The position numbers and the translations under genes were made by a program. Under the pieces are notes generated by a model. The model was given only the letters and a program-made list of their open reading frames with translations. It had not been told where the DNA came from and did not search any database. Positions 6,301 to 9,300 of a stretch of 26,848 nt of DNA are shown here, piece by piece. This DNA comes from Phoronis ovalis (taxonomy: Eukaryota; Phoronida; Phoronidae). The stretch's first letter is position 1, and each line of letters begins with the position of its first letter. The DNA lies in assembly GCA_028565635.1 (NCBI GenBank), contig JAOXYB010047502.1, forward strand, positions 1 to 26,848, written 5' to 3'.

Positions 6301-9300
6301 TTTGATGTGGGATCTCACAGGCCCCTATTTATCTGATCTTATATATTTTAAACTGCAATTCTCAAAAAATCCCTGTATCTAAAAGCTCAATTTTTGTTTT
6401 TAAAAAACCAGGAGTGATTCTGGAGCTAAAAAAATTCTTAAAAATGGTAACTTTTAGAATCAGGCACACAAAGTACTTAATTTGCTTGCTTAGCAAGAAA
6501 ACAGCACAGTCACTGTGTTAAATTGTTCTTATACTTTTGCCATGCAAGCCTATTATAGATCTTGTGTTGAATGACAAGTTTTTATATGCTTGTGAAAGAG
6601 GCCACTTTTTTGTAAGGATGTGTATAAAAAGATTGCTTCATTCCAGACTACCATACATGTGTAAGGTGGTAATTTTCTGGCCCTTCAATTCTCTCCCTCG
6701 TGTATACTCATCATTTACTTAAGTGCAAGCCCTGTGTAAGATCACGTATAAGAAAATATCCTGGTAACAGATCACAATGCATGGGGGAGATAAATATTCA
6801 ATTGTGTTTCAATAAGTCCTATGCATAGTTTCCTTAAAATATCAAATTATTATCTTCCATCATTTTTAAACAAATACTTATAGGAAAAAATTGAGCTTGT
6901 CATATGCCTTTTAGAATTCCATTGGGACAGCTTTAATTTTTACTTGTGTCATGTGATCGAAAATTTGTGTTATTAGAGACTCGAGATACATTGTGACATT
7001 GTTATTTGACTATAATTTACTATCTTCATTTTCGTAATCAAAATGAAGAGATGGACATATCAAAGTATACATTTTTTGGAAAGATTATACTTTTTGTAAA
7101 TCCTTAATTCATAAGGCGGCTAGAAATAGTTCTCATAATCTGATGTGATCATTTCGAGAAATAAATGTGTTTTTAAATTTTTATTTAAGTCGATGCCTAC
7201 CTACGAGATTGAAAGTTTTCACAAATTATCTTTATATAATTATATAGATCTGCGAAATGTAATTGAAGTTATTAATTTTCAAAAGGCAAAATTTTAAACT
7301 TCTGACATTTGGTTTTGTACAGGTACATATACGTGTGAAGTTCATTTGTGCCTAGTTTTAAGTTTTGTAGGTAAAGGAGTTTCGGACTTATATTATTTGA
7401 CATAAATTTTAAGAAAAGGATCAAATTAAAACTGTAGAATCTCTTGTAAAGTTTACAATAATACCCTTTTAAAAATGTTTACTCATTATGTCTTTCTCTT
7501 CATTTTAATTATGAAAGCATAGGTTGAAATATATATACACCTCAGTATATCTCGAGACCTTAAGACATGTGTTCCAGAACTCCTCCAAATGTCGCTACTT
7601 TTGAACATACGCTTCAAATACAATTAAAGCTGTTGTTTCTTTTATAAAATATTATTAATTTGAGTTTATTGTAAATTATCTTTTACATTGAAAGTTGTAA
7701 TTATGTTTTCAGATTGAAAATTCTGGGGATCCATTTTACGACTTTAGCAATCCCCAGAAGCTCACCTACTGGGAATGTGTGTACTTTCTTATGGTTACAG
7801 TGTCCACTGTTGGCTACGGTGACATATACTGTAAAACAGTACTAGGACGTTTTTTTATGGTTGTTGTAATCCTAGCCGGATTGGTAAGTTATTACAAATC
7901 AGTCTTTCCTAACTCTACTGTCTTCTTTCTTTTAGACAGAAAATTCTGGAGATCCTTTCTACAATTTTGAAAATGCGCAACGCTTAGGTTATTGGGAATG
8001 TGTGTATTTTGTGTTTGTCACCGTTTCTACAGTGGGATATGGTGATATCGGGTGCAAGACCACACTTGGTCGCATCTTCATGGTTGTAGTAATTCTGGGA
8101 GGTTTGGTAAGTCGCTGGAATGATGATGCAGACTGGTCACAGCATGAATGTACTTTACTTTAATATTCAAACATTTCTAACAAGTCAGCCGTTACCAGCA
8201 TCTAACAAATCAACTCAGGACATCTCTGTTTTATTCATTTTTTGAACGTATACATTCTTACGTGCTGCAAGAATGTTTTTTTCATTAATTTCTAATAAGC
8301 TGCCTGCTATGAGATTCATTTTTTTCTAACATTTCTCACAGCTATGAATGTGCTTTAATTTATTCATACATTTCTCATAAGTTGTCTGCTTCTATTTGTT
8401 CTTTTCTAATAATATTCCTGTTCGTGTGTCTTAAATTTATCTGAACAAAGTTTTCAAAGCTATGAATTTATTTATATACATTACTAGACATTTACCTGCT
8501 ACAAGACCTTCTGTTCATACATACTGCAACAAAAAAGACGCTGTATTCATACATTTCTACAAAGTTGTTTGCTACACAAAGATACATTTCAAGTATATAC
8601 TAAGTTGTTCACTACAGGAAATTGAATGATAACTTCATATTTTAATCTAAAAGTTGCCTTTTATAGTACCTTGAATCACGCAATAATAATGTAAAAAAAT
8701 GTTACCTGTTACAAAACAAAGCATTTGCACAAAAATGTTCATGTAAAATGTGTTTTAGTTATACTCCACTCTTTATTTAGATTTATAGGGATGTCACAAT
8801 ACTGACCACATGATTGTATCTCATCATCATGGAAATGACTTTCATTTGTCAGAAGATGTCATTTACTACTAAATGTTTCCCTTCCTGTTGCTCCTTTTTC
8901 ATACTCATTCAAGTATTGTGCAATAAGAGGATGTCGCCCGTTTTGGAATTATTAATAAAACTGCTAATCACCGTATGTGACAAAAACATTAAAATGATAG
9001 ACCAATCCATTATTATTATTACTTGTTTTACCAGTCTGGAGGTTTCTTTTTTAGGATTACTTCTCTTCTCCCTGGTTTCCTGTATGAATACCCTCTAATT
9101 ATCGATAGTCCAATTCCGGAGTCCGATAGGAATTCTTTTTAAAATACATGCTGCGCAAGTTGGTGATATTTCAATGATGCTTTTTTTAAATCTGCAGCAG
9201 CATGTGATAATGATTTCACTCTACCATTGAACATCTGTGATATTTATATTGCCTATTAGTTTGAATATTGGTGTCATTTCAAGTTTCTTGGAATTTGTAA

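Follow-up and report, generated by a model that had tools for sequence, protein, structure and literature searches.

Slo1 (BK) channels are usually described as having one pore, which is tuned by splicing of the cytosolic part and by auxiliary subunits. A 26,848-nt contig of Phoronis ovalis (JAOXYB010047502.1; "the window" below refers to this whole stretch) raises the question of whether one Slo1 gene can hold two pores and choose between them by splicing. The original prediction for this DNA was that two tandem 171-nt exons exchange the whole conduction pathway of the channel. Two in-frame pores in one natural gene would be a ready-made chimera experiment, asking which pore residues evolution lets co-vary (273, 281, 282, 294 and 310), whether BK uses filter gating physiologically, and whether splicing controls external block.

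The Slo1 gene and its tandem exons

The plus strand of the window carries a Slo1/BK gene that is readable from S1 (position 312) to the calcium bowl (position 26548). Our gene model comprises 21 exons at 18 positions, with two candidates at three of them, and has GT-AG boundaries and fitting phases throughout. The features of the model are as follows.

312..373, + strand: S1 exon, placed by splice sites and frame; matches to BK structures start here
2456..2555, + strand: S1-S2 exon
3760..3871, + strand: S2-S3 exon
4816..4967, + strand: S4-S5 exon, ending in phase 0 with donor GTAAGT
7713..7883, + strand: pore exon Pa, with turret, pore helix, TVGYGD filter and upper S6 (human 256-312), with Tyr 294 and Ala 310
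7884..7935, + strand: spacer intron between Pa and Pb, 52 nt, with CTAAC (A at 7912)
7936..8106, + strand: pore exon Pb, same region as Pa, with Gly at both 294 and 310 and with Val-Phe at 281-282
9533..9624, + strand: lower-S6/C-linker exon La, same protein region as vertebrate exon 9/9alt (PMC11758846, available passages)
9691..9782, + strand: second lower-S6/C-linker exon, Lb, separated from La by 66 nt
11208..11318, + strand: RCK1 exon
11487..11745, + strand: RCK1 exon
12078..12233, + strand: RCK1 exon
13525..13637, + strand: Ea of the third tandem pair (C-terminal RCK1), weak donor ACT/GTAAAA (slash at the exon end)
14536..14648, + strand: Eb of the third tandem pair
14899..15057, + strand: BK_channel_a exon
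15240..15316, + strand: exon after RCK1
23287..23425, + strand: tentative inter-RCK linker exon, in a region that aligns poorly
23565..23706, + strand: inter-RCK linker exon
24109..24327, + strand: RCK2 exon
24662..24860, + strand: RCK2 exon
26140..26247, + strand: RCK2 exon
26418..26548, + strand: calcium-bowl exon (DQDDDDDPD); the contig ends 300 nt beyond

The translation running through Pa, La and Eb (834 residues) scored 1270 bits against Aplysia Slo1, 1203 against fly slowpoke, 1092 against human Slo1 and 115 against Slo2. The comparison with Slo3 covered the gating ring alone and gave 429 bits, versus 767 for the human Slo1 gating ring. With Slo1 sequences as its best relatives, above Slo3 and Slo2, the gene is a Slo1 (BK) alpha subunit. 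Pfam searches with the first 459 residues of a Pb isoform returned PF22614, PF03493, PF00520 and PF07885, among which are the RCK domain of slowpoke and the BK alpha-subunit domain. When a fly S0-S1 fragment was used as the query for S0, its S1 part alone matched; the contig starts 311 bases before the S1 exon.

Two observations concern the introns of the model. Its longest spacing, 7,970 nt, is an intron located in the RCK1-RCK2 linker (15317-23286); the next longest is 2,745 nt. This long intron may hold further optional exons. A minisatellite at 3384-3745 (period 52, 6.9 copies, 94% matches) abuts the acceptor region of the S2-S3 exon, since it ends 14 nt upstream.

Pa and Pb are both open, 171 nt long, in phase 0-0 and bounded by GT-AG, and they share 45 of 57 residues and 114 of 171 nucleotides; the coordinates and figures first given for them proved exact. 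Both carry the TVGYGD filter. We numbered their residues as in human Slo1 by adding 255 to the exon position, anchored on STVGYGD (286-292) and FILGGLAMFAS (307-317) as given in the available text of PMC12962649. The last residue of each exon corresponds to human L312, in the middle of S6. The turret, pore helix and filter are thus present as predicted, while "most of S6" is not, and the exchange of a whole conduction pathway was overstated because lower S6 belongs to the next exon pair (9533-9624 and 9691-9782).

A tblastn comparison of Pa with Pb within the window gave E = 1.6e-29, which excludes chance similarity, and no third or decayed pore copy stood out in the window at E up to 10. A search for the pore in the animal's own genome, which comprises 77.4 Mb in 4805 contigs and in which six candidates were scored, recovered Pb, Pa and one match of 37% identity. 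The frame of this third match, at 10319-10441 of contig C4783, reads by eye as a Slo2-type pore (FSTVGYGDLTPDIWPSQ). Alleles or an assembly artefact were considered and set aside, as either would fit poorly with 67% DNA identity between copies that lie 52 bases apart on one contig. The available passages of PMC3228551 recognise mutually exclusive exons by very similar length, by compatible splice sites with the same reading frame, and by homology of neighbouring internal exons; Pa and Pb are alike in length (171 and 171 nt), in splice sites and frame (GT-AG, phase 0-0) and in sequence (45/57, E 1.6e-29).

The other two pairs lie further downstream. La and Lb, at lower S6 and the C-linker, are 92 nt each, lie 66 nt apart and agree at 21 of 31 residues. 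Ea and Eb, in the BK_channel_a region of RCK1, are 113 nt each and agree at 17 of 35 over the compared stretch, with Eb matching Aplysia Slo1 at 28 of these 35 residues and Ea at 16. Judged from the exon arrangement, the three tandem choices alone could yield up to eight channels (2x2x2).

Constraint, age and splicing of the pore exons

The nucleotide differences between Pa and Pb fall 11, 7 and 39 times at codon positions 1, 2 and 3, and different codons are used at 28 of the 45 identical residues. Neither copy contains a stop or a frame break. Two of four methods gave values for dN (0.17-0.18); one of these returned a dS of 12.7, which means that synonymous sites are saturated, and the other returned none. 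The third-position counts (39 of 57 differences) were rejected as sole proof, being insufficient to exclude one neutral copy, and we therefore ran a drift simulation with 300 runs at each of 4 lengths under 5 scenarios; it used a single fixed constraint of 0.05 and is hence a guide. The target was at least 45 identical residues, at least 28 silent codon changes and no stop. This pattern appeared in 78 of 1200 runs when both copies were constrained, in 2 of 1200 when one copy was neutral for the last 10%, and in none of 3600 with longer neutrality of one copy. Under this model, Pa and Pb look maintained, both having evolved under constraint.

Four residues common to Pa and Pb (Y264, V285, V306 and V307) are absent from the aligned segments of human, fly and Aplysia, and the two copies are more similar to each other (45/57) than either is to any of these three (34-41/57). 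Taken together, the shared residues and the closer mutual identity point either to a duplication that arose in this lineage once it had separated from Aplysia or to gene conversion. The ancestral-like state was assigned to Pa at 6 of the 12 differences and to Pb at 3, with 3 undecided; by this count Pa is the more conservative pore, and Pb is the more derived one, changed around the filter.

We also looked for relatives in two contig collections. The genome_contigs set gave 268 pattern matches, of which 166 passed tblastn; among the best 80 of these 166 loci, with best segments 34-63% identical, there was no animal slo, and all were bacteria or archaea by title. The viral_contigs set yielded no relative. 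The mollusc Slo1 with a solved structure, that of Aplysia (PDB 5tj6/7rjt), carries GFGD, and its upper S6 is unusual (FVVIFIMIFIGLFAS). The idea that this GFGD pore is the product of an alternative exon was dropped, as Aplysia Slo1 is divergent in S5 too.

The splice sites of the pore exons were then scored. Within the window, 31 of 1667 GT sites score at least as high as the Pa and Pb donors, while 29 of 1327 AG sites reach the score of the Pa acceptor and 8 of 1327 that of the Pb acceptor, which is the stronger of the two. Among the other 19 model exons, 14 donors score above those of Pa and Pb, and 13 acceptors score above that of Pa and 5 above that of Pb, in a comparison that favours these exons because the matrix was built from the same 19. 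The sites of the pore pair therefore lie inside the range of the model, not at its top.

The 52-nt spacer contains a single yUnAy motif, CTAAC, whose A lies at intron base 29 and 23 nt before the intron end; as a motif match, this A is the putative branch point of Pb. Elsewhere in the model, away from the three tandem pairs, all 17 spacings measure at least 139 nt. Introns near 50 nt are spliced in some animals. In the available part of a human survey, a distance of less than 50 nt from donor to branch point was taken as steric interference, which applied to 57 clusters, or 9% (PMC5740500); the candidate distance here, set by the yUnAy motif, is 29 nt.

Including both pore exons (342 nt) or skipping both would keep the frame, which means that nonsense-mediated decay cannot enforce the choice and that exclusion must arise at splicing itself. 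The frame would shift upon joint inclusion of La and Lb (92 nt each) or of Ea and Eb (113 nt each). We infer that the Pb branch point lies too near the Pa donor for the spliceosome to remove the spacer; each transcript would then join 4967 to either 7713 or 7936, and the chosen pore exon would go on to join La or Lb. On the strength of these sequence features, Pa and Pb most likely form a mutually exclusive exon cluster of one Slo1 gene, putatively kept apart by steric exclusion and predicted to encode K+-selective pores, of which that of Pb would be altered. The exon anatomy, the signs of selection and the shortness of the spacer fit the predicted exchange of two functional pores by splicing, with the qualification that swapping of a pore by tandem exons has a precedent in NALCN, described below.

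Predicted pore behaviour and other readings

Of the 12 residue differences between the copies, T273G, L281V, M282F, Y294G and A310G (Pa to Pb, human numbering) should carry the most weight; 5 of the 12 lie in or before the turret, and Y279 is the same in both. The tyrosine at human Y294 is, we assume, the external-TEA site of Slo channels. According to the passage available, Y294 mutations cause C-type inactivation in human BK, Y294G itself being absent from that passage; the filter mutation V288A inactivates only if present in all four subunits, and L312A acts stepwise (PMC12962649). When we scanned the 80 prokaryotic loci kept as the best of the 166 for the position matching 294, Gly was found in 0 of 77 locus-residue pairs, a locus without the motif yielding no pair.

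Since TVGYGD is present in both copies, K+ selectivity should hold, and both isoforms would be K+-selective. Pa would form a conventional BK pore. The changes in Pb would alter the surroundings of the filter and with them block at the outer mouth, likely making the channel insensitive to external TEA, and at low external K+ a Pb channel would tend towards inactivation of the filter (C-type). Mixed Pa/Pb tetramers might behave in an intermediate or an all-or-none manner; the contrast between V288A and L312A means that either pattern could be seen. We tentatively put forward, as a possibility of which we are less than convinced, that splicing toggles between a non-inactivating, outer-blocker-sensitive pore with Y294 and a blocker-resistant, C-type-inactivating pore with Gly-294, set cell by cell and independently of the two other exon pairs (8 channels).

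Three other readings of the pair have to be weighed. One copy, most likely Pb, could be a non-functional relic of the duplication, with Pa alone spliced in; the residue assignments agree with this in so far as they make Pb the more derived copy (ancestral-like state in Pa at 6 differences and in Pb at 3, with no decision at 3). A relic is nevertheless very improbable in our estimate, because synonymous sites are saturated and yet just 12 of 57 residues differ, because, of the 4800 simulated runs in which one copy went through a neutral phase, 2 reached the observed pattern, and because the splice sites are intact, with the Pb acceptor scoring above that of Pa. A further reading, to which we give less credence again, is that both copies are used, but that regulators or RNA structure make the choice, steric blocking being incidental and the pore difference nearly neutral. 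The steric distance applied to 57 human clusters alone, or 9% (PMC5740500, available part), which would leave room for choice by regulators, and the 5 differences in or before the turret suit near neutrality; the changes next to the filter (281, 282 and 294) and the one at 310, however, are unlikely to be silent (compare PMC12962649, available passage).

The least probable reading is that some or all mRNAs contain Pa and Pb together, so that each subunit would have two tandem pore segments and a regulatory or dominant-negative role. Although the joint 342 nt would be in frame and both exons have usable splice sites, the motif-based donor-to-branch distance of 29 nt speaks against removal of the spacer, and the fold of the subunit should be broken by an extra set of pore helix, filter and half-S6. 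To our knowledge, no BK subunit has two tandem pore segments.

Comparison with known systems

A mutually exclusive pore pair in Slo1, the reading we prefer, has a close counterpart in NALCN. Its exons 15a/15b and 31a/31b are tandem and mutually exclusive in Lymnaea and other invertebrates (molluscs and annelids among them), and, like Pa and Pb, they span the P-loop (exon 15 also the proximal S6) and alter residues at the filter (PMC3557258, available passages). NALCN differs in being a four-domain cation leak channel, in which one of four P-loops is swapped and EEEE becomes EKEE or EEKE (PMC3557258, same passages). Slo1, by contrast, is a tetrameric K+ channel, so that in a homotetramer the swap would affect all four pores while leaving the K+ signature unchanged. 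The Pa/Pb pair thus works like the NALCN pore exons without being one of them, as the gene is Slo1 and the filter is the same in both copies.

In vertebrate Slo1, exons 9 and 9alt are reportedly mutually exclusive, a finding said to be that of Soom in 2008. They are alternative exons in the S6-RCK1 linker (PMC11758846, available passages), the region of La and Lb, and by their place they leave upper S6, the filter, the pore helix and the turret untouched. Voltage-gated channels are enriched in tandem exon pairs, and the slo events of human, fly and worm have been called distinct (PMC9741552, available text), so a shared place need not mean a shared origin. The same text attributes three tandem events to fly slo, one altering Ca2+ sensitivity and another conductance (citing Lagrutta 1994). 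Drosophila slowpoke is thus the same gene with tandem homologous exons, and the available text of PMC9741552 mentions neither the exact positions of its events nor a pore exon pair. Figure 5 of that paper places the slo events on structure 3naf; the alignment of 3naf with our Slo1 model begins at residue 196, and the pore exon corresponds to residues 143-199, so that the figure could hardly show a fly or worm pore event either way. Cav3 exons 12a/12b resemble the pair as alternative exons at the outer pore that alter permeation in protostomes; they differ in lying in the extracellular turret of one domain and not in the filter (PMC4436565, available passages).

Among the matches listed in a search of the open-access literature by titles and abstract starts, there was no report of a slo pore exon pair. 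Alternative pore-region exons reportedly occur in a K+ channel gene of the Kv1 family, lobster Shaker, and no paper on them was evident by title or abstract among the open-access matches listed. Pore swapping is therefore a known kind of event through NALCN, and its slo instance appears new within the open-access collection searched. If the reading is true, a tetrameric K+ channel joins NALCN as an example of pores selected by splicing.

The same genome also yielded a 15.7-kb mitochondrial contig (C1114) with genes on two strands. Its gene order, taken with Aplysia Slo1 as the best match of the gene model, pointed to a lophotrochozoan animal, probably mollusc-like, and no further. One strand reads COX3-ATP6-ND3-ND2-COX1-COX2 and the other ND1-ND6-CYTB-ND4L-ND4-ND5, with COX1, COX2, COX3, ATP6, ND3 and ND1 called by Pfam and ND2, ND4, ND4L, ND5, ND6 and CYTB by eye. 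This order presumably resembles the chiton-like (Katharina) order, but with atp6 moved between cox3 and nad3.
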